A stretch of DNA of 25,275 bases from a virus. Below, piece by piece: positions 2,345 to 24,851 of the stretch. The notes beneath the pieces are model-generated. The model ran no database searches. It saw only the letters and a list, made by a program, of their open reading frames with translations, and had not been told where the DNA came from. The position numbers were made by a program, and so were the translations under genes. Location: the IMG/VR virus record IMGVR_UViG_3300035190_000771, positions 1-25,275 of that record; one strand, written 5' to 3'. The number at the start of each line of letters is the position of its first letter. Positions within the stretch are counted from its first letter, which is position 1.

Positions 2345-2562
2345 TAGTAAGTTCCTCCGTCTATCGGACCATTGGGTGATGGATCTTCGTAAAAAGACAG
2401 CACATCAAATCCAGAATTAGCGTCTTCAGGAATGTATCCCGATGTCTGATCCGCTTTGCAAACATAAAACTTGCCGTTACGCTTGACAACATCTCCGTAC
2501 ACATACACAGTGTATTGAGAAGACCCCTCAATGTATTTACGGTGCAAGCCACGGTAGTTCAT
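2344..2562 (-). CDS. Small carbohydrate-binding (CBM5/12-like) protein
   Basis: A 72-residue protein between the spike and the PAAR tip genes. It holds the pattern YVYGDVVKRNGKFYVCKADQ followed by GYIPED, resembling the family 5/12 chitin-binding fold, in which a GDxVxxxGKxYxC stretch precedes an aromatic binding surface. It is likely a virion component on or near the spike, perhaps contacting cell-surface glycans or acting as a structural plug. Start and stop both overlap the neighbouring genes in TAATG form, so its dose is tied to theirs. The similarity is short and the call is tentative; the reading frame itself is secure from the overlaps. Confidence 0.75.
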   Translation of the reverse strand: MNYRGLHRKYIEGSSQYTVYVYGDVVKRNGKFYVCKADQTSGYIPEDANSGFDVLSFYEDPSPNGPIDGGTY

Positions 2563-3653
2563 TAGCCACCGCCCTTCAAGTCAACACGCTTGGGCTTCAG
2601 CACGGGTTCGCCTGAATTCACTTCAATTCGCTTGCCCTGCTGCATCACCATGACATTTTTGTCTGTGATGAACGAGATGGTGCGTCCAGAGAAACCAATA
2701 TCTCCGTCTGCATAAAATTCAATGGTCTTTCCAGATGCCTTCAGTGATCCCTCAACTTGAATATTTACATCGTTGTTTGCAAGTATACTGGTGTTTCCGT
2801 TAATCTGTATATTTGCTCCGTTGTTAATGGTGATGTTCGCGGAACCATCAATCACAAGGTTCAACCCTTCTTTTCCGCGAATGTGAACCTTCTTATGCCC
2901 GTGAACTATTTCGTAATCATTTCCCACGATTCGCTGCACACGAGTTCCGTTTGGGTCTGCTTCCCATCCGTTTCCAATTTCATTGAATGTGCCTGAAGTA
3001 TGGTAATGATGAATTCGTTCAGATCCTGGCGTATCATCATATTCTTCAATGTGCCCACTTTCAGTGTATCGAACATGATTCTTGGGATACACTGCATTGT
3101 ATGGAGTGATAGGTTCATTCCAAACAGAGCCACCCCCAATATCTGGTGTACTTTTAATGTTTGTTGAAGTGTTTTCCACTTTAGCAATGACAGCGGTTAT
3201 CTTGCTAATATCTGTGTCGTTTCGAGCAAGACGATTGGTGTCTGGTTCTTTTACAATTGATATTCCCGGCGGTCCTATTCCGTTGTTCTTTTTTGGATAC
3301 ATTCCGCTTGGATCATTGAATCCCAGTTTTGTGTCAGGAGGATTAAGTGGTATTCCTCCAAACGATCCAATCATCACAGGATCTTGCCCCTCTTCTCCAT
3401 CACGAAAAAATCCAAACACATGGGAACCCTGAAGCAGCCCTGTGGGAGAAGTACCGATACCCGATACCGCAGCACTGGTGATGGGCTGCATGGGATACGC
3501 CCACGGCAGCGCAGCCGTTGGCAGTTCGGTCTTGTCGTCTGTGTGGAAACCGTACACGCGAACACGGCAGCGTCCAAGGAACAGCGGATCGGCAGTGTCT
3601 TCCACTACGCCGTGCCACCACACAAACCCTTCTCGTCCTAGAAATCCCTTCAT
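2562..3653 (-). CDS. 5: Baseplate central spike gp5-like protein without lysozyme domain
   Basis: A 363-residue protein from the ATG at 3653. That start is chosen over an ATG 15 bases upstream because it forms the TAATG overlap with the preceding gene seen throughout this operon and has GGGGG just upstream. Residues about 5-105 are the gp5 N-terminal OB-fold (WWHGVVEDTADPLFLGRCRV, then LPWAYPMQP, then GSHVFGFFRDGEEGQDPVMI). Residues about 225-345 carry short beta repeats (NITINNGANIQINGN, NNDVNIQVEGSL) typical of the triple-stranded beta-helix needle. T4 gp5 has a lysozyme domain between these parts; here there is only a short linker, as in many cyanophage-type relatives. It should form a trimer on the gp27-like hub and be tipped by the PAAR protein. 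Confidence 0.9.
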   Translation of the reverse strand: MKGFLGREGFVWWHGVVEDTADPLFLGRCRVRVYGFHTDDKTELPTAALPWAYPMQPITSAAVSGIGTSPTGLLQGSHVFGFFRDGEEGQDPVMIGSFGGIPLNPPDTKLGFNDPSGMYPKKNNGIGPPGISIVKEPDTNRLARNDTDISKITAVIAKVENTSTNIKSTPDIGGGSVWNEPITPYNAVYPKNHVRYTESGHIEEYDDTPGSERIHHYHTSGTFNEIGNGWEADPNGTRVQRIVGNDYEIVHGHKKVHIRGKEGLNLVIDGSANITINNGANIQINGNTSILANNDVNIQVEGSLKASGKTIEFYADGDIGFSGRTISFITDKNVMVMQQGKRIEVNSGEPVLKPKRVDLKGGG

Positions 3654-4984
3654 TAGACCCCCATGCAATTCCGTGAAAGTTCAAGTTTGCAACTGTACGC
3701 TGTGCCGATGGTGTGCTTCACACTTGTAACCAAATACTCTCCACTCAAGTTTTTGTCGTCCATGTCGGTCAGTACTGCAACATCGGACTGCGGCTTTGGA
3801 ACCTTGATATGCACCACATCGCCCACTCGCCGTCTGCTGTCCCCAAATATCTCAATCATAATCTTCTGTGTCAAAAATGCGTTCATGTGATACTTACGCT
3901 TGAGATACACAGACTCTATCTTTGAGTTGTCCACGATGCCGTTGGATTTACTGTGAACTGTGTATGAGGTTGACGGCAAGTACGAGTACGCCACACCACG
4001 ACCAAACATCCGTTTGGATTCAGGATCCGCCGTTCGAAAGTGCGGTTCGGTTCCCAATTTCTTTATGCTGTCAAAAATGGCGGGTTCAAACAAATCGGCT
4101 ATCCGTTGCTCCTTACGCACCAAATCGTGAACCACCAAACGAGACGACACTATGCCGTTCATTATATTGTTGGCAGCGTCAAATCGGCTCATTTCTTCAA
4201 GCCGTTGTATTTTGTGATATCGGGACGGTAGCGGACTTTTGAATCCTAGATTTTGCAGTTGCCCTTCGGCAATACCAGCATTTGCAGTGGTGTGCAGATA
4301 GGTGACGGGATTTGCTGATCCTTGATCAATAATGGACGACAGACTGGCGAATCGGTAACCGTCTAGTGTTTCGTAAAACAAGAACGGGCTGTACTCGTTT
4401 CCTGTTTTGGTGTACGCTTTAGAGGTAAGCCAATTTATTGCTTTGAAAGGAGTGTACGCATACGGCAACACAAAAGAGTAATTATCCTTTGTGGGTTCAA
4501 TCTGCAACCGATCTTTCCACACACCTTCGGGGAAATGCTTCTTGAAAATTCCCGCCACCATATCCGACACCGTTCCTGACATGGCGTAACCGCAGTAATC
4601 AGAAAAATTAAAGAATCCGCCCTCACTCATCAGGTGCAGCACATACTGCTGTGTTTTTCCTGTGTCCGAAATTTTCTGTGTGTCTAGTTTGTACACACGA
4701 AACAGTAGTTGCACCGGAGCAAAAGCATTAATATCTGACTTGAACGAGATTTCTATTTTCTCGTGTCCAACAATAGGAAACCGCTCAGGAAAGTTGAATG
4801 CGTCTTCGATATGCAATTTGGCAGACAGATAGGGAGAGAATATGTCTTCGTAGATTTCGATATAGCGAAACAGATTCTTGAGGTCTATCTCTTTTCCATT
4901 TATCAACGAGTACATCACAAACTTTTCTAGTTTGTAGTTTCCCGCTGAAAGTATTGAATTACCGTGTCCCGATTGATCAGCCAT
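3653..4984 (-). CDS. 27: Baseplate hub protein, gp27-like
   Basis: A 443-residue protein. The N-terminal part (LRYIEIYEDIFSPYLSAKLH-like: FRYIEIYEDIFSPYLSAKLH, then VGHEKIEISF) matches the tube-like domain of gp27/gpD hub proteins, in which an edge strand precedes a region binding the target of the trimer. A middle helical region (MVAGIFKKHF) and a C-terminal barrel (GDSRRRVGDVVHIKVPKP, then SGEYLVTSVKHTI) fit the same architecture. It lies directly upstream of the spike gene, as gp27 partners do. gp27 forms the trimeric adaptor between the six-fold tail tube and the three-fold spike. Family-level assignment rests on architecture and order, so it is good but not certain. Confidence 0.8.
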   Translation of the reverse strand: MADQSGHGNSILSAGNYKLEKFVMYSLINGKEIDLKNLFRYIEIYEDIFSPYLSAKLHIEDAFNFPERFPIVGHEKIEISFKSDINAFAPVQLLFRVYKLDTQKISDTGKTQQYVLHLMSEGGFFNFSDYCGYAMSGTVSDMVAGIFKKHFPEGVWKDRLQIEPTKDNYSFVLPYAYTPFKAINWLTSKAYTKTGNEYSPFLFYETLDGYRFASLSSIIDQGSANPVTYLHTTANAGIAEGQLQNLGFKSPLPSRYHKIQRLEEMSRFDAANNIMNGIVSSRLVVHDLVRKEQRIADLFEPAIFDSIKKLGTEPHFRTADPESKRMFGRGVAYSYLPSTSYTVHSKSNGIVDNSKIESVYLKRKYHMNAFLTQKIMIEIFGDSRRRVGDVVHIKVPKPQSDVAVLTDMDDKNLSGEYLVTSVKHTIGTAYSCKLELSRNCMGV

Positions 4985-8465: not shown

Positions 8466-9149
8466 ATGGCACTAGTACCGTCAAACATCAACGAAATGAT
8501 AGAATCAATCAGGCGGTCTGGCGTTGCGTACAGCAATCGCTACGAACTGATGTTTGGTATTCCAAGCGTATTTCCAACAGGCAATCCAGCGGAACTAAAG
8601 AACCTGACAGTTCGTTGTGATTCGGTTACTGTTCCCGGTCGTGGATTTTCAACCACACCGTATCGCTTTTACGGTCCTGCTCGTAATATGCCGTATGAAC
8701 CCATCTACAGCGGAGAGATAAACATATCCATGATCCTGTCTGCGGATTTGCGTGAACGCAAGTTTTTTGAAGACTGGATGAATTTTGTGTGCAGCCGCGA
8801 CAACTTCAAGTTTGGCTACTACGACGATTACATTACCGATTTAGAGATAACCGTATTCAGCAAAGACGAAATACCCACCCACAGGTTCTTTGTGGAAGAA
8901 GTGTATCCCAAGTCTATTGGCGACTTGCAGATGGGATACGACAAGGATAACGACTATCTGCGTCAGGATGTAACCTTATCGTTCCGTAAGTACACGCCAG
9001 AATATATTGGTATGCCTCCCTCCAAACCAACTCCAAACGGTGGTGCTGCTTCCTTCCTGAGTCCAGGCATGAGTAAAATATTCAACATGGGCAAAAACGC
9101 AGGAGGCGATCCGCAGCAGTGGAAGTCGCCAACAAATACTCCAAGTTAA
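8466..9149 (+). CDS. 19: Tail tube protein gp19
   Basis: A 227-residue protein, against 163 in T4. It shows the tube-protein pattern: NRYELMFGIPSVFP near the N-terminus, CDSVTVPGRGFSTTPYRFYG, then ADLRERKFFEDWMNFV and a terminal beta strand YLRQDVTLSFRKYTPEYI. In gp19-type proteins the helix before the F-x-x-W motif and the surrounding beta sandwich build hexameric rings that stack on gp48/gp54 and line the DNA channel. The extra length is mostly a Pro/Gly/Ser-rich C-terminal tail. The ribosome site GGGGGAGGATAA spans the end of the preceding gene, with no gap between them. Confidence 0.88.
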   Translation: MALVPSNINEMIESIRRSGVAYSNRYELMFGIPSVFPTGNPAELKNLTVRCDSVTVPGRGFSTTPYRFYGPARNMPYEPIYSGEINISMILSADLRERKFFEDWMNFVCSRDNFKFGYYDDYITDLEITVFSKDEIPTHRFFVEEVYPKSIGDLQMGYDKDNDYLRQDVTLSFRKYTPEYIGMPPSKPTPNGGAASFLSPGMSKIFNMGKNAGGDPQQWKSPTNTPS

Positions 9150-9190: not shown

Positions 9191-9901
9191 ATGATGCAAC
9201 TGAATCTCGTTAATGCTTCACTACCACAATACAACATGAGCCTGCCTGTATCGGGCATCACCACAAAATTCAGACCATTTGTAGTCAAGGAGGAGAAAAT
9301 CCTCCTGATGGGTCTACAGTCAAAAAGCATTAATCAAATAAATGATGCCATGCGGAACATCATTCTTGCCTGCACCAACAATGTGGTGGACACACGAAAA
9401 TTGTGTGCTGCGGATGCAGAGTACGCATTTCTACAAATTCGATCCAAATCAGTGGGAGAAGAAGTCAAGCCACAAGTGGTTTGCACCACTTGCTCCAAAG
9501 AAACCGTGATCAAGATTAAACTGGATGAAATCACCATTAAGCCCACAACAAAACCGGTGGTTGATAGCAATATAAAAATAACAGATACCCTTGCTATCGT
9601 GATGCGATATCCATCCATTCACGACATTGACTACAACAAAACAGAAGTAGAGATTGCTTTTGACCTAGCCAAGCGGTGCATCGAATCCGTGATTATTGAT
9701 GAACAGGTCTACCAAGTAAAAGACATCAATCCACAGGAACTCACCGATTTTGTTGACAACATGATGCCTGAGCAGTTTGCAAAAATCATGGATTTCATTC
9801 AGAGCGTTCCTGAACTTTCCTATGAATTCCAATATCAATGCCCCCAATGCTCGGAAACAGTAAAGGTGCAACTAAAAAGTGTATCTGATTTTTTTCGGTA
9901 G
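9191..9901 (+). CDS. 26: Baseplate hub/tail assembly protein gp26
   Basis: A 236-residue protein. SGITTKFRPFVVKEEKILLM and LQIRSKSVGEEV match T4 gp26 (RPF/KPF-x-V-x-x-EK, then I-R-x-KSVGE). Two CxxC pairs (CTTC near 99, CPQC near 219) could form a zinc ribbon. The end, QCPQCSETVKVQLKSVSDFF, parallels the T4 gp26 end with CPKC and ADFF. Family members act in hub assembly. The 0-frame ends just past DFF with Arg then TAG; the last two Phe codons are the slippery site described separately, so this is probably the short form of a pair of proteins. The start could be either of two adjacent ATGs. Confidence 0.9.
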   Translation: MMQLNLVNASLPQYNMSLPVSGITTKFRPFVVKEEKILLMGLQSKSINQINDAMRNIILACTNNVVDTRKLCAADAEYAFLQIRSKSVGEEVKPQVVCTTCSKETVIKIKLDEITIKPTTKPVVDSNIKITDTLAIVMRYPSIHDIDYNKTEVEIAFDLAKRCIESVIIDEQVYQVKDINPQELTDFVDNMMPEQFAKIMDFIQSVPELSYEFQYQCPQCSETVKVQLKSVSDFFR

Positions 9902-9926
9902 CCCTCTGTCATAATGACTTGGGGGC
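9889..9926 (+). promoter_or_regulatory. Programmed -1 ribosomal frameshift signal at end of gp26
   Basis: The heptamer T TTT TTT (9889-9895) is positioned as X XXY YYZ in the gp26 frame (GAT TTT TTT CGG TAG). A 5-base spacer follows, then a hairpin: 9901-9906 pairs with 9921-9926 (GCCCTC with GGGGGC, one G-U), a small U/UU internal loop, then GTCA with TGAC closing a TAA triloop. Slippery run, spacer and structure match known -1 frameshift elements. The -1 frame enters a 62-codon open reading frame that reads like protein. Confidence 0.8.
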
Positions 9927-10083
9927 ATATTACCAAATGAACTTCAATCTCATGCAGCATCACGGGTACTCTCTCGCTGAATTGGAAGGAATGTTACCTT
10001 GGGAGCGAGAGGTATACATACAAATGCTTATTTCTCATCTTAAAAAAGAACAAGAAAAAGCAACCAACAGAAAACCACTGTGA
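9895..10083 (+). CDS. -1 frame extension of gp26 (tail assembly chaperone long form)
   Basis: This is the -1 frame after the slip, from codon TCG at 9895 to TGA at 10081-10083, giving 62 residues and a 297-residue fusion with gp26. It reads SVALCHNDLGAYYQMNF then QHHGYSLAELEGMLPWER and ends in a basic, Lys/Glu-rich tail. The coding look starts before the first ATG of this frame (9937), since CHNDLGAYYQ already resembles the family pattern. That argues for fusion rather than separate initiation, although a 48-residue protein from 9937 cannot be excluded; no good ribosome site precedes it. The placement directly before the tape measure gene is the classical site of the frameshifted chaperone pair (lambda G/GT type). 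It may correspond to T4 gp51; I could not verify that. Confidence 0.75.
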   Translation, partial: SVALCHNDLGAYYQMNFNLMQHHGYSLAELEGMLPWEREVYIQMLISHLKKEQEKATNRKPL

Positions 10084-10112: not shown

Positions 10113-12089
10113 ATGGCAAAGAAAATCGTCAGCGATAAACAGATGAGGCAGATGATGGCTTCCCGCCAAGAGCGGGTGGGTGGTCGCTTTGGTGGTTTAA
10201 AGCCTGAGTTCAAGACTCCTCCTGTTGCTGCCGCTAAAGATGTGGCGGTATCAGATGCAGCCGTAGCAGAGAGAATTAATTTTCTACAGGCTATCCTCAA
10301 CGAACGAAAAGCAATGGGGATTGAGACTTCTGAACTAGAAGAGTATGTGGTTGGAACTGCTCAAAAGCAGGGTATGCGTTCTGTTGTTGAAACATTCATA
10401 TCAGAAAACCGTGAGCAGTTTAATCAAGACGATCCAGCAGGAGCGGCTGCGTATGAATTGATGAAGGAAGCGGTTGTGCTTTCCGAATCATCAATGAAAG
10501 CATCCTTTGATGACGCTAAAAAGATATACGCTCAACTACAGTTCATACGAAAGGTAGCAGCAAACGCAAAAGGCAAGAATTCCGCTATTGCTAAACAGAT
10601 GGAAGGCATCATTGCGCCTGTTGAAGCACAACTAAAGAAGCGAACATCTTTTGCTGCGTTTATAAAAGATAAAGCAGAATCATTCAAGAAGACACTCCCT
10701 GAACGCTTGGCTGCAAAAGTGCCGGTCGTTGGTGGTCTACTAAGCGGATTCTTGAGAGATAAACGCGAAGCACAAGAAAGCATTGAACTGTTGTCTGGTC
10801 GCATACAAGAGCAAGTCTCCCGTGGTGGTCAAAGAGGAACAGACCTAGACATTAGTGATGTACGACAGCCCCGTAGAGGTGGCGGAACCGGAATGATGGG
10901 CGGGACTCGTGCATCAGATATTCCAGGGCTTGATGTTGGTGGTGCAGGAAAAGGCATACCGTCAACACTTGGTGCCATCTATAAAGAAGTCACCAAAATC
11001 CGCAGCATCATTGAAAGCAAATTTGCTCCTGTAGAAAGTGATGCCACAGAACTAAAAGCCCGCGAAGCAGAACTAGAAGGCAAGACCGGCGGTAAGGTTT
11101 CCGAAAAAGCAATCAAAATGGTAACAGGGGAAAAGGGTGGTGGCGGATTCCTGTCTTCACTACTGTCAAATCTGCTTGGTTCAGGTCTTGGTACGCTGCT
11201 TGCAAACGGACTTCTGGCTCTTGGTCCAATGATCATAGGAGCGATTGCAGCAATCGGTCCTGCACTCATGGCAGCAATTGCAGGGCTTGGAACGGCTATT
11301 GCAGCCATTGGCAGCACACTGCTAACCGTTGCCATTCCTGCTCTAGTGGCTACTGTGGGAGCAGCCATTGGCGGTGGTTTGGCGTGGCTTATCAACTCAG
11401 GTATTGATGCCATCTTTGGCACAAATCTAGCAGAACTGATGTTTGACAAAGACACCTACACATTCGGTGATGTTGCCCGAGAAAATAAAATAGCAGAACA
11501 AGGCAAGGCTGCTGATGCGCGGATAGAGGCTCAACGAAACACTCCCGAATACACAGCAGCCATGTCTCAGGATCCTCGAATGCTTCCGAAACTCATTTCG
11601 GAAAAAAGAATCACCGGATCTGAGGGTTTGGACATACTGTCTTCGTTTGAATCCAAAAACGGAAGAGGCGAAGACACGGACGCAATTCGTGCAAGAATAC
11701 TAGAAATAGATCCAAAGGCAGTAGGATCAAATATTGGATCTTTTGCCGCTGTGAATGCAGCACAGTCCGCAACTGCTGCTGCAACGATTCCTTCGGTGTC
11801 ATCGGCTGCAACATCGTCTACGGGATCAGATCAATCCACATCAGTGGGTGTTATATCATCGTCTTCGCCAAACACCACAGCAGGTAAAATGTTGAATCAG
11901 TATTCAGCGGAACAAGCAGCACTCAGCAATGCACAATCTGCGGGGACAGCGAGCGTTGGTGGAACCGTGAACAACTCGTCCATGAACAGCAATGTCAGCA
12001 ATGTGGTGAACAACTTTAATGACGATCTGCGTATTCGTAACAATGAACCCACGCAGAAGCAGATGCAGACATTCTCACTTGTACCGTAA
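10113..12089 (+). CDS. 29: Tail tape measure protein (gp29-like)
   Basis: A 658-residue protein. Residues 1-330 are charged and helical (FLQAILNERKAMGIETSELE, then FIKDKAESFKKTLPERLAAK). Residues about 342-440 are a long Gly/Ala/Leu-rich hydrophobic stretch (ALGPMIIGAIAAIGPALMAA), and the C-terminus is Ser/Thr/Asn-rich. A hydrophobic belt between helical regions is the usual look of a tape measure protein, which fills the tube lumen, fixes tail length and leaves first at ejection. T4 gp29 has 590 residues, so tail length should be similar or slightly longer. It directly follows the frameshifted chaperone cassette. Sequence identity to gp29 cannot be judged here; the role is inferred from composition and position. 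Confidence 0.8.
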   Translation: MAKKIVSDKQMRQMMASRQERVGGRFGGLKPEFKTPPVAAAKDVAVSDAAVAERINFLQAILNERKAMGIETSELEEYVVGTAQKQGMRSVVETFISENREQFNQDDPAGAAAYELMKEAVVLSESSMKASFDDAKKIYAQLQFIRKVAANAKGKNSAIAKQMEGIIAPVEAQLKKRTSFAAFIKDKAESFKKTLPERLAAKVPVVGGLLSGFLRDKREAQESIELLSGRIQEQVSRGGQRGTDLDISDVRQPRRGGGTGMMGGTRASDIPGLDVGGAGKGIPSTLGAIYKEVTKIRSIIESKFAPVESDATELKAREAELEGKTGGKVSEKAIKMVTGEKGGGGFLSSLLSNLLGSGLGTLLANGLLALGPMIIGAIAAIGPALMAAIAGLGTAIAAIGSTLLTVAIPALVATVGAAIGGGLAWLINSGIDAIFGTNLAELMFDKDTYTFGDVARENKIAEQGKAADARIEAQRNTPEYTAAMSQDPRMLPKLISEKRITGSEGLDILSSFESKNGRGEDTDAIRARILEIDPKAVGSNIGSFAAVNAAQSATAAATIPSVSSAATSSTGSDQSTSVGVISSSSPNTTAGKMLNQYSAEQAALSNAQSAGTASVGGTVNNSSMNSNVSNVVNNFNDDLRIRNNEPTQKQMQTFSLVP

Positions 12090-16859: not shown

Positions 16860-16941
16860 TGGGAGCGGAGGGATTCGAACCCCCGAAGGCGATGCCAACA
16901 GATTTACAGTCTGTCCTCGTTGTCCACTTGAGTACACTCCC
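16860..16941 (-). tRNA. tRNA-Tyr (GTA)
   Basis: Class II tRNA with a long variable arm. Acceptor GGGAGTG pairs with CGCTCCC; the anticodon stem ACAGA/TCTGT encloses CTGTAAA with anticodon GTA; the T arm has the TTCGAAT loop. Discriminator A; CCA is not encoded. Confidence 0.95.
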
Positions 16942-16951
16942 GACAATACAG

Positions 16952-17024
16952 TGATCCTGACGGGATTCGAACCCGTGTTCTCGCCGTGAAAGGGCGGTAT
17001 CCTAGCCAACTAGACGACAGGACC
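16952..17024 (-). tRNA. tRNA-Glu (TTC)
   Basis: Acceptor GGTCCTG pairs with CAGGATC (one G-U). The anticodon loop CTTTCAC gives TTC, and the T arm is ACGGG/CCCGT around TTCGAAT. The base of the anticodon stem has a C-A mismatch where E. coli has C-G. Discriminator A; no encoded CCA. It lies 10 bases upstream of tRNA-Tyr. Confidence 0.93.
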
Positions 17025-21043: not shown

Positions 21044-21062
21044 TTGTGTTTCCTTTGTATCG

Positions 21063-21135
21063 TGCCTTGGGCGGGGGTCGAACCCGCGACTTAGAGATTA
21101 AAAGTCTCTTACTCTACCAACTGAGTTACCAAGGC
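21063..21135 (-). tRNA. tRNA-Lys (TTT)
   Basis: Acceptor GCCTTGG/CCAAGGC; D arm ACTC/GAGT; anticodon stem AGAGA/TCTCT around CTTTTAA with anticodon TTT; T arm GCGGG/CCCGC around TTCGACC. Discriminator A; no CCA. All arms are perfectly paired. Confidence 0.96.
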
Positions 21136-21396: not shown

Positions 21397-21468
21397 TGCG
21401 GATTGGGAGAATCGAACTCCCGTGACGGGTTTGGAAAACCCGCGTAATAGCCTCTATACGAAACCCGC
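21397..21468 (-). tRNA. tRNA-Gly (TCC)
   Basis: Acceptor GCGGGTT/AATCCGC; anticodon stem CGGGT/ACCCG around TTTCCAA with anticodon TCC; T arm GGGAG/CTCCC around TTCGATT. The 5' base follows the TAA of the zinc-finger gene with no gap. Discriminator A; no CCA. Confidence 0.95.
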
Positions 21469-21931: not shown

Positions 21932-22183
21932 TTAAAATAGACCGTAGACCGAAACACCTGTGGCACACGAAGCACCCGATACTTTAATTGGAAATATTGT
22001 AGATGAACTTGCACCTGCAATCATTCGCATTGAAAAAGTAGAGCCTGTTGCACCCCACGGAAACAAGTCAACATTGGACGGAGTGCCGTTGGTGTTGCTG
22101 AACATGACACCCTTCACTTTATTGGTGAGGGTGGATGCGTATGCACCTGTGGTAATTGTTGTAATCTTATGGTAAATGTCCAT
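21932..22183 (-). CDS. Small virion-type protein, related to C-terminus of next gene
   Basis: An 83-residue Gly/Ser/Thr-rich protein of probable beta structure (GVMFSNTNGTPSNVDLFPWG then SSSTIFPIKVSGASCATGVS). Its last 30 residues resemble the end of the upstream 322-residue protein: both have an SS-x-x-F segment and finish with VSVYGLF or ISIYGLY. This suggests that they share a terminal domain, perhaps an assembly or binding module. The ribosome site is CGGAGA. It follows the larger gene after 19 bases and a CTAAATA motif lies across that gene's stop. It is probably expressed late with the fibre-like protein. Confidence 0.72.
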   Translation of the reverse strand: MDIYHKITTITTGAYASTLTNKVKGVMFSNTNGTPSNVDLFPWGATGSTFSMRMIAGASSSTIFPIKVSGASCATGVSVYGLF

Positions 22184-22199: not shown

Positions 22200-22206
22200 T
22201 ATTTAG
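22200..22206 (-). promoter_or_regulatory. CTAAATA motif overlapping a stop codon
   Basis: The minus strand reads CTAAATA over the TAA stop of the 322-residue gene, 16 bases before the ATG at 22183. It is the same arrangement as at 18341 and 23547. As a promoter it would give a leader of about 10 bases that retains GGAG. Confidence 0.3.
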
Positions 22207-23171
22207 TAAAGTCCGTAGATTGAAATTTCTGGAGTTGCTACACCGCTATTGTTCGTACTAATCGTGAACGGAGCAATATCAAATAATTGAGATGAATTTG
22301 CGGGAACAATAAACGGAACAGACACAATATTGTAATGATCAGGACTTGCCGCACCCACGGTTGTAGTACTGGATCCAATACCAGTAATAAATTTATTCCA
22401 ATTAGTAGATGTGGGTAAATACGAACCAGGCACAGTACCTTCAATTAATTGCGCTCCCCAAAACACTATTTGTGCTGCGGGTGGAGATCCGCTACCAGAT
22501 CCAAATGCAATATTTTCAAAAGCACTACCTGATCCTTCGTTTGACACAAATGTCCACGACACACGAACGGGAATTTCCGACAGTTGAAAATCTGGAGAAA
22601 AAACACTGCCATTAAGTGATTGGCTGAAATACGAAATTCTCATAGTGGGTGAGGTGGTGTATGCACCGCCTCCAGAATCACCACAAGCCCAAACCGATGC
22701 TGTATAGATTACGCCTTTTGGTAAAAAACTTGTAGACGGGAATGGTTGATACACACCAGAACTTGCGCTCTGATTTTCGGTTCTTGTTATCACACCATTA
22801 GTACTTCCATCAGGCATCAGAATACGAGAATACCGAGCCTGACCTACTATTCCAGTAGTACCACCAGGATTCGTAGTACCAAAGTTAGACCACCCCCGAC
22901 CAGTTGTTGCACCCGCATAGATGTTTTCACTAAAGAAGAAAAAATTCTCAGCAGTGGCGCGTGGGCTGTCGTACAGATACGCATTAAAAGGAATACGAGA
23001 AGCGGTTCTGTTGGTAGCAAGAATTGCTCGCGCTTCTGTTTTACTGTTAATGGTACGAGCGTGATACCAGTTTTTATCTGCTCCTGATGCAAAACAATAG
23101 CCTCGTCCAACTCCATCAATAAAGTCAAACGCATACGCTTTGGAATAAATGTCTCGGTACAGGTCTGCCAT
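22203..23171 (-). CDS. Probable tail fibre/adhesin protein with carbohydrate-binding-like domain
   Basis: A 322-residue protein. Residues about 145-250 form a jelly-roll-like domain: GVIYTASVWACGDSGGG, RVSWTFVSN, then IVFWGAQLIEGTVPGSYLPT. The last pattern (W/F-G-A-Q-L-E/I-G, S-Y-x-P-T) is very common in phage virion proteins with carbohydrate-binding-like folds. The N-terminus (DFIDGVGRGYCFASGADKNW) may attach to the virion. The C-terminal 45 residues resemble the 83-residue gene downstream. The ribosome site GGAGGAAAG is strong, and it follows the tmRNA terminator. It is likely a receptor-binding or decoration protein; the exact place on the virion is unknown. Confidence 0.75.
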   Translation of the reverse strand: MADLYRDIYSKAYAFDFIDGVGRGYCFASGADKNWYHARTINSKTEARAILATNRTASRIPFNAYLYDSPRATAENFFFFSENIYAGATTGRGWSNFGTTNPGGTTGIVGQARYSRILMPDGSTNGVITRTENQSASSGVYQPFPSTSFLPKGVIYTASVWACGDSGGGAYTTSPTMRISYFSQSLNGSVFSPDFQLSEIPVRVSWTFVSNEGSGSAFENIAFGSGSGSPPAAQIVFWGAQLIEGTVPGSYLPTSTNWNKFITGIGSSTTTVGAASPDHYNIVSVPFIVPANSSQLFDIAPFTISTNNSGVATPEISIYGLY

Positions 23172-23203
23172 TCACTTTCCTCCAGTCCTCTATGTAGACC
23201 AAT

Positions 23204-23230
23204 AGAAAAGGGAGCCTTGCGGCTCCCCTT
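23204..23230. terminator. Terminator at 3' end of tmRNA
   Basis: A 7-bp stem GGGAGCC/GGCTCCC (23210-23216 and 23221-23227) with a GCAA loop on the minus strand, followed by TTTTC; on the plus strand it is followed by CTTTC. It ends the tmRNA precursor before the fibre-like gene. Confidence 0.8.
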
Positions 23231-23541
23231 TCAGCCCGTTCAGATGCGGGAGGGCTAGTCCCCACGGCTTCAAGCCGCCATTGCTAGTTTGTTAGCAATT
23301 ATTGTTGCAGCAGTTTTTTTAACGAGGATCCACTACACGCCTCGGGCATCTCCTGCTTCAGTACTCCGCACCAGTCGATTCCGTATCGACCCCGTATTTT
23401 TTGCCCCCGCTGCAAACGGAGGGCTTGACTGCGGGAAGAGGCGGGTGATGCAGTCACTCCGCATTCGCGCATCTTTGTAATGGAGTCGGGGGGAGTCGAA
23501 CCCCCGTGCTGTATGCGTTTTCGTCCACGATCAACAATGCC
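23205..23541 (-). ncRNA. ssrA: Circularly permuted (two-piece) transfer-messenger RNA
   Basis: Read on the minus strand. Acceptor piece first: about 23541 down to 23481, with T arm GGGGG-TTCGACT-CCCCC (23505-23489), then CGACTCC and discriminator A. An 87-base spacer (23480-23394) follows. The coding piece begins at 23393 with GGGGTCG, pairing fully with CGACTCC and placing a G-U at position 3-70, the alanine identity pair. It continues with ATACGGAATCGACTGG, the conserved tmRNA D-domain. Distal helix 2 can form between ATGCC (23349-23345) and GGCAT (23541-23537). Pseudoknot PK1: CGAGG/CCTCG (23344-23340 with 23327-23323) and GTAGT/ACTGC (23336-23332 with 23314-23310). The tag reading frame and a further possible pseudoknot precede the terminator. 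No anticodon arm and no encoded CCA. With SmpB it would rescue stalled ribosomes and tag nascent proteins for proteolysis. Confidence 0.93.
23270..23296 (-). other. tmRNA tag reading frame (ANKLAMAA)
   Basis: The frame GCT AAC AAA CTA GCA ATG GCG GCT TGA encodes ANKLAMAA. The resume codon is placed at GCT (23294-23296) because AATAATT before it matches the E. coli context AATAGTC in spacing and because PK1 ends 13 bases upstream. An earlier GCA in frame would give ATIIANKLAMAA. The Ala-Asn start and the A-x-A-A end are typical of tags. The stop lies in a CGGCT/AGCCG hairpin, as in helix 5 of other tmRNAs. Confidence 0.8.
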
Positions 23542-23546
23542 GTAAG

Positions 23547-23553
23547 TATTTAG
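23547..23553 (-). promoter_or_regulatory. Late-type promoter for tmRNA
   Basis: The minus strand reads CTAAATA across the TAA stop of the upstream gene. A start 6-7 bases downstream falls at about 23541-23540, exactly the first base of the helix-2 strand of the tmRNA acceptor piece. This is the best argument that CTAAATA works as a promoter here. Confidence 0.5.
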
Positions 23554-23951
23554 GCTGGCTCTAGCATTTCGTCTTCGCGGTACTGCCCTCTCCACGCAGC
23601 AAGGGGAATAAACAGGTGCCCCACCTGATTGTCCCACACCCACCATCCACCGCTGACTTCCGCGCAGTACAGCAGCATCTGCCCCTCTGTGGTGTCTTGA
23701 CGCAACGCCAAGTTCCACAGGTAATGCTCTAGTCCAATCATCCACCCTGAGCCGTAGTACTCTTCGCTCAGGTCGCGCATGATGCGTAGCAAAATTTGTT
23801 TATGGATTTCGCGGTCGCTTATTCGCCCGTAGGCGCGGTTTCCGCTTGGTGGCTTTTCTTTCAGGCTTGGCTTTTCCGAAAACAGCCTCCCAACCAGCGT
23901 CCCAAGCCACGCGATCAACCTTCCGATACGAGTCACCTTTTCCTGCGCCAT
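23550..23951 (-). CDS. Protein of unknown function, 133 residues
   Basis: A short N-terminal amphipathic or hydrophobic segment (IGRLIAWLGTLVGRLF) is followed by a Lys/Pro-rich linker and a Trp-rich domain (YGSGWMIGLEHYLWNLALRQ, then SGGWWVWDNQVGHLFIPLAA). The aromatic-rich half suggests a folded alpha/beta domain. The ribosome site GGAAGG lies 5 bases before ATG. It is the gene directly upstream of the tmRNA and its stop overlaps that gene's promoter motif. No family is recognised. Confidence 0.7.
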   Translation of the reverse strand: MAQEKVTRIGRLIAWLGTLVGRLFSEKPSLKEKPPSGNRAYGRISDREIHKQILLRIMRDLSEEYYGSGWMIGLEHYLWNLALRQDTTEGQMLLYCAEVSGGWWVWDNQVGHLFIPLAAWRGQYREDEMLEPA

Positions 23952-24758: not shown

Positions 24759-24774
24759 GGTAGTTTTTTTGAAA

Positions 24775-24845
24775 TAGGCGGTTCAGGTGTCGATCCTGAA
24801 TGAACCTGGTATAAGCAGGTCTGCGAAGCCGTCCGCCCACCGCCC
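24775..24845 (-). tRNA. tRNA-Ile (TAT)
   Basis: Acceptor GGGCGGT/ACCGCCT (first pair G-U); short D arm with GCG/CGC; anticodon stem ACCTG/CAGGT around CTTATAC, anticodon TAT reading AUA; T arm TCAGG/CCTGA around ATCGACA, where the usual first T of the loop is A. The small D arm and T-loop change make it atypical. No CCA. Confidence 0.75.
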
Positions 24846-24851
24846 AGTGGT

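Follow-up and report, generated by a model that had tools for sequence, protein, structure and literature searches.

The window analysed in this work is a stretch of 25,275 nucleotides of viral DNA (positions 1 to 25,275 of IMG/VR virus record IMGVR_UViG_3300035190_000771), and the locus considered here comprises the gp26 gene, its neighbours and the following features:

8466..9149, + strand: tail tube protein, the upstream neighbour of gp26 (phrog_45 tail tube, 3.5e-34)
9191..9901, + strand: gp26 open reading frame, predicted short product (TAC-N) of 236 aa (PF12322 and phrog_150 matches)
9889..9895, + strand: slippery heptamer T_TTT_TTT, separated from the 0-frame stop by 3 nt (CGG)
9895..10083, + strand: -1 frame extension, the gp51 or TAC-C part of the predicted 297-aa product, 62 aa plus stop (phrog_634 match, pN/pS)
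9897..9934, + strand: putative stimulatory stem-loop, with core stem 9901-9906/9921-9926, inner stem 9908-9911/9915-9918 and weak outer stem 9897-9900/9931-9934
10113..12089, + strand: 658-aa open reading frame, probable tape measure protein (position, long Ala/Gly-rich hydrophobic stretch)

Profile searches match the gp26 product to PF12322 T4_baseplate (2.7e-54) and to phrog_150 baseplate hub (6.6e-65), and the 62-aa extension by itself to phrog_634 'baseplate hub assembly catalyst', the annotated gp51 family (1.8e-24). A search of the PDB by sequence found no relatives. The gp26 frame (9191-9901) also encodes two CxxC pairs (C98/C101 and C217/C220) of zinc-ribbon-like appearance, partly lost in cyanophage relatives. 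The 658-aa frame at 10113-12089 has no family match in profile searches, and its name is thus one that we infer; as the next gene on the strand after the extension, it probably occupies the tape measure position.

The gp26 frame closes with the codons GTA TCT GAT (the last at 9887-9889), TTT (9890-9892), TTT (9893-9895), CGG and the stop TAG (9899-9901), so that a run of seven T (9889-9895) falls in the X_XXY_YYZ phase, with a single codon between it and the stop. The -1 frame, taken from 9895, opens with SVALCHNDLGAYYQ and closes after 62 codons with a TGA (10081-10083), and the short product would hence have 236 aa and the long one 235+62=297 aa. An earlier note on this DNA had described a T_TTT_TTT in the correct phase at the end of gp26, a -1 frame continuing past it and two products of 236 and 297 residues; the sequence bears out both the heptamer (9889-9895) and the open frame (9895-10083, 62 codons), and the predicted lengths, when recomputed, agree exactly.

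The heptamer is conserved among relatives of the window. All 38 close IMG/VR relatives with the site on their contig (69-100% identical) keep GATTTTTTTC and the -1 extension, which is 62 aa long in every case except L010 (41 codons, with a contig end or a stop in frame). Wider scans added cyanophage-like and other myoviruses as well as named phages, and genes were collapsed at 90% identity; the non-redundant readable genes whose -1 extension gives a match to the gp51 profile form a set of 116. Excepted from it are the Ackermannviridae phage AG3, contigs ending before the site (L035, L113 and L137), T4-type gp51 genes and Vibrio phage K444, and L074, which has the heptamer and in which an extension was not detected, was left outside the set. 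Looking for the slippery run and the -1 frame in the gp26 genes of related phages, as the earlier note had proposed, we found an in-phase T_TTT_TTN at the end of the gene in 116 of 116 non-redundant relatives (56 C, 54 T, 5 A and 1 G at the last base), with the 0-frame stop 0 to 27 nt beyond it. Of the 27,340 other codon positions in these genes, 14 carry the in-phase motif, and its presence at the end of gp26 can therefore not be put down to chance. The first slip codon is TTT in 116/116 genes, whereas TTT makes up 72% of the remaining Phe codons (p about 4e-17, with related genes treated as independent). The set includes T_TTT_TTA and T_TTT_TTG variants, in which the second slip codon encodes Leu, and hence it is the slippery nucleotides that are kept, not a Phe-Phe pair. 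All of another 12 named phages likewise combine the heptamer with an open -1 frame; they include Aeh1, S-PM2, P-SSM2, Cronobacter phage S13, Stenotrophomonas phage BUCT608 and the 490-kb Agrobacterium phage Atu_ph07, which keeps both even with an extension too diverged for a match to the gp51 profile. A 7-T run within a metagenomic contig might point to a homopolymer sequencing or assembly error that breaks the frame of one intact gene, but the two-frame layout recurs in more than 100 non-redundant records, some of them from isolates in which the run has just six T, and these refute the explanation, which retains a vanishingly small probability.

Within the window's clade, only the -1 frame of the extension shows purifying selection: pN/pS is 0.23 for that frame, as opposed to 2.0 for frame 0 and 1.7 for +1. 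The value falls to 0.09 over codons 3-14, which lie ahead of any ATG in the clade. These results bear on the possibility that a small gene of its own encodes the second domain, with ribosomes reinitiating on it once they have terminated at the gp26 stop, which is what the annotators of cyanophages assumed in calling it 'gp51'. Such loci do exist: in the Ackermannviridae phages AG3 and XF4 and in Vibrio phage K444 the gp51 part is a separate reading frame that starts in a stop/ATG overlap after gp26 (L050, 1585-2390; L051, 1342-2345; L257, 1141-2096), and a check for the heptamer in AG3 and K444 found none. For the window's clade, codon 9 of the -1 frame is a TTG, which could formally serve as another start and to that extent counts against frameshifting, and part of the clade offers an ATG at codon 15, yet the strong constraint spans codons 3-14. 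Usable starts are absent from 83 of the 116 relatives, which have no ATG, GTG or TTG in the -1 frame upstream of the slip or within the first 6 codons after it; annotated gp51 starts, such as that of S-RIM2, lie 3' of conserved -1 codons; and the heptamer is universal in the set. On the evidence of starts and pN/pS, a separate gene with its own start was rejected for the window's clade and accepted for the Ackermannviridae, and as an account of the window it seems highly improbable. The earlier note had set against its own reading the case of relatives encoding the second domain as an own-start gene devoid of the heptamer, an arrangement that is foreign to the 116 relatives, all of which keep the heptamer, and that is found in AG3 and K444. 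The pattern of selection and start codons thus fits frameshifting, and not a separate gene.

The signals that might stimulate frameshifting differ between the window and most of its relatives. Folding confirms the 5-base spacer and two-part hairpin of the earlier note: the 50 bases past the heptamer (9896-9945) have a minimum free energy of -17.1 kcal/mol (z=-3.1; 1 of 200 shuffles reached this value), and the core and inner stems follow a spacer of 5 nt (9896-9900) that the weaker outer stem, 9897-9900/9931-9934, can close. In the window and its near relatives the stem-loop has z values of -1.7 to -3.2, and across 17 relatives 89% of the cells of the core and inner helix are paired, with pair counts that, as regards covariation, are no better than those of shuffles. 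Synonymous variation is 0.31 over the hairpin codons and 0.34 over the remaining extension, a slight difference, and the constraint is not exceptional. A Shine-Dalgarno (SD)-like five-mer ending 8 or 9 nt upstream of the heptamer is present in 79 of 116 relatives, with a mean anti-SD duplex energy of -6.1 kcal/mol vs -1.6 kcal/mol elsewhere in the gene, and is absent from the window and its clade. It overlies a conserved Glu-Gly pair, of which the Glu is encoded by GAG in 43/66 cases vs 26% overall (p 5e-11, with genes treated as independent). The downstream hairpin is specific to the window's clade, and the commoner candidate stimulator is the upstream SD-like element. Outside the window's clade, SD strength and downstream structure show no significant general trade-off (p=0.82), and given this, the lack of covariation and the unexceptional synonymous constraint, the stimulatory role of both stem-loop and SD-like element is one that we infer. 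In the -1 frameshift of Escherichia coli dnaX, an SD-like element some 10 nt upstream is combined with a slippery heptamer and a stem-loop; dnaX thus shares the SD-like element with most relatives studied here and differs from the window, which lacks it, as well as in heptamer and function.

The same signals help to weigh a further explanation, namely that the fusion arises through slippage of RNA polymerase on the T run, and not of the ribosome. Homopolymers of 6-8 T are indeed found in many relatives, but many have six T only (T_TTT_TTC, 56/116), the SD-like element at its fixed distance of 8-9 nt is a translational signal, and GAG is favoured over GAA precisely there. Transcriptional slippage consequently appears highly improbable, and ribosomal frameshifting remains the preferred reading.

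The comparison with T4 bears on the two products. The short form is homologous to T4 gp26 and the long form to T4 gp51, according to PF12322, phrog_150 and phrog_634 matches, alignment and profile comparison (probability 97.9). T4 gp26 (208 aa) ends three residues past the shared slip-site Phe-Phe in the alignment, whereas T4 gp51 (249 aa) aligns with the whole fusion, running through Phe-Phe into the extension, over which a near-identical relative of T4 gp51 (L214) was aligned against FFSVALCHNDLGAYYQMNFNLMQHHGYSLAELEGMLPWERE. The Phe-Phe codons of T4-type gp26 are TTC TTT, which is not slippery, and hence T4 makes its short and long forms from two genes. Gene counts follow suit, with one PF12322 gene in each frameshift genome searched whole and two in each T4-type genome, save for two T4-type records that count three, one with a gene cut by the record ends and the other with a split copy. 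Both T4 proteins belong to PF12322, gp26 matching the short product of the window and gp51 the whole fusion, and the T4 genes differ in being two, divergently transcribed and devoid of the slippery heptamer. The abstract of Vladimirov et al. reportedly describes frameshifting as a conserved trait of several T4-like groups and names genes 26 and 51 as those employed by T4. It is conceivable, and we put it forward tentatively as somewhat short of an even prospect, that the slip site has been kept while its stimulator was exchanged, the common SD-like element at 8-9 nt having been lost in the window's lineage and a downstream stem-loop gained, and that frameshifting was given up by the Ackermannviridae for a stop/start overlap and by T4 for gene duplication, so that several genetic routes would lead to the same protein parts. 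Stimulator exchange around a fixed slip site would make a testable case of the evolution of recoding signals.

Heptamer conservation, selection in the -1 frame, the gp51 match and the in-frame fusion seen in T4 gp51 all support the lambda G/GT-like -1 frameshift put forward in the earlier note. Judged from sequence comparison, translation of the gp26 gene very probably uses two frames through -1 ribosomal frameshifting, yielding TAC-N (gp26) and TAC-NC (gp26-gp51) in the manner of lambda gpG/gpGT, and the locus would provide a T4-superfamily phage with its two tail assembly chaperones, their chaperone function being putative. Most ribosomes would terminate at the TAG at 9899-9901 and release the 236-aa gp26, while a fraction would slip one base back on T_TTT_TTT, possibly aided in the window by the stem-loop just downstream, and produce the 297-aa fusion. 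By analogy with lambda, the part common to both forms may cover the tape measure protein, and the domain that only the rare long form possesses may bring in tail-tube subunits. The two systems have in common a -1 slip, predicted for the window, close to the 3' terminus of a known or putative chaperone gene that precedes the tape measure position (a probable one in the window), as well as a short and a long product; the lambda slip heptamer differs from T_TTT_TTT, and the likeness is one of arrangement. The lambda frameshift is the subject of Levin 1993 and Xu 2004, 2013 and 2014, as cited in PMC5009743, a 2016 review in which the G/GT frameshift is described as conserved in long-tailed phages 'except T4'. 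T4 gp51, for its part, is required yet not found in the particle (PMC3004832).

The earlier note did not know this arrangement to be described for the T4-type gp26 locus, and on this point it does not hold. Direct literature searches on gp26, gp51 and cyanophage frameshifting returned nothing, and prior work was traced through a reference list: the TAC genes of T4-like phages were identified by Vladimirov, Gautam & Davidson (2022, Virology 566:9-15), as related in PMC12846349 and PMC10885494, the former ascribing to that work poly-T -1 signals in TAC-N genes of T4-like phages and the latter the presence, in certain T4-like phages, of one gene each for the short and the long form. The locus of the window therefore adds a well-supported example to a system already known in kind. 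As far as those accounts of the 2022 study go, the locus shares with the TAC-N/TAC-NC genes the type of locus and a short form accompanied by a C-terminally extended one, and it adds an uncultured lineage in which a strong stem-loop replaces the upstream SD-like element. Lambda-like recoding for two forms of a tail chaperone would thus extend through most of the T4-superfamily groups sampled, and in many database entries the extension is annotated as a separate gene or left unannotated. A 2010 comparison (PMC3037559) found cyanophage gp51 to lack the first ~200 residues of T4 gp51. The present reading would explain this, the annotated cyanophage gp51 being the frameshifted tail of gp26, and not a gene of its own.

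Several other features of the window deserve mention. A gp5-like baseplate hub frame (2562-3668, - strand) is only 368 aa long and matches parts of the gp5/tail-lysozyme families, the lysozyme part being seemingly absent. The adjacent frames at 21932-22183 and 22203-23171 (- strand), which have no family match, end in the similar motifs VSVYGLF and ISIYGLY. tRNA genes for Tyr, Glu, Lys, Gly and Ile(TAT) are scattered on the - strand (16860-17024, 21062-21135, 21397-21468 and 24774-24846). Both ARAGORN and Rfam RF04321 (71 bits, with a gathering score of 47) detect a permuted, two-piece tmRNA gene with tag ANKLAMAA at 23179-23571 (- strand), a phage-borne permuted form on a T4-type phage contig.
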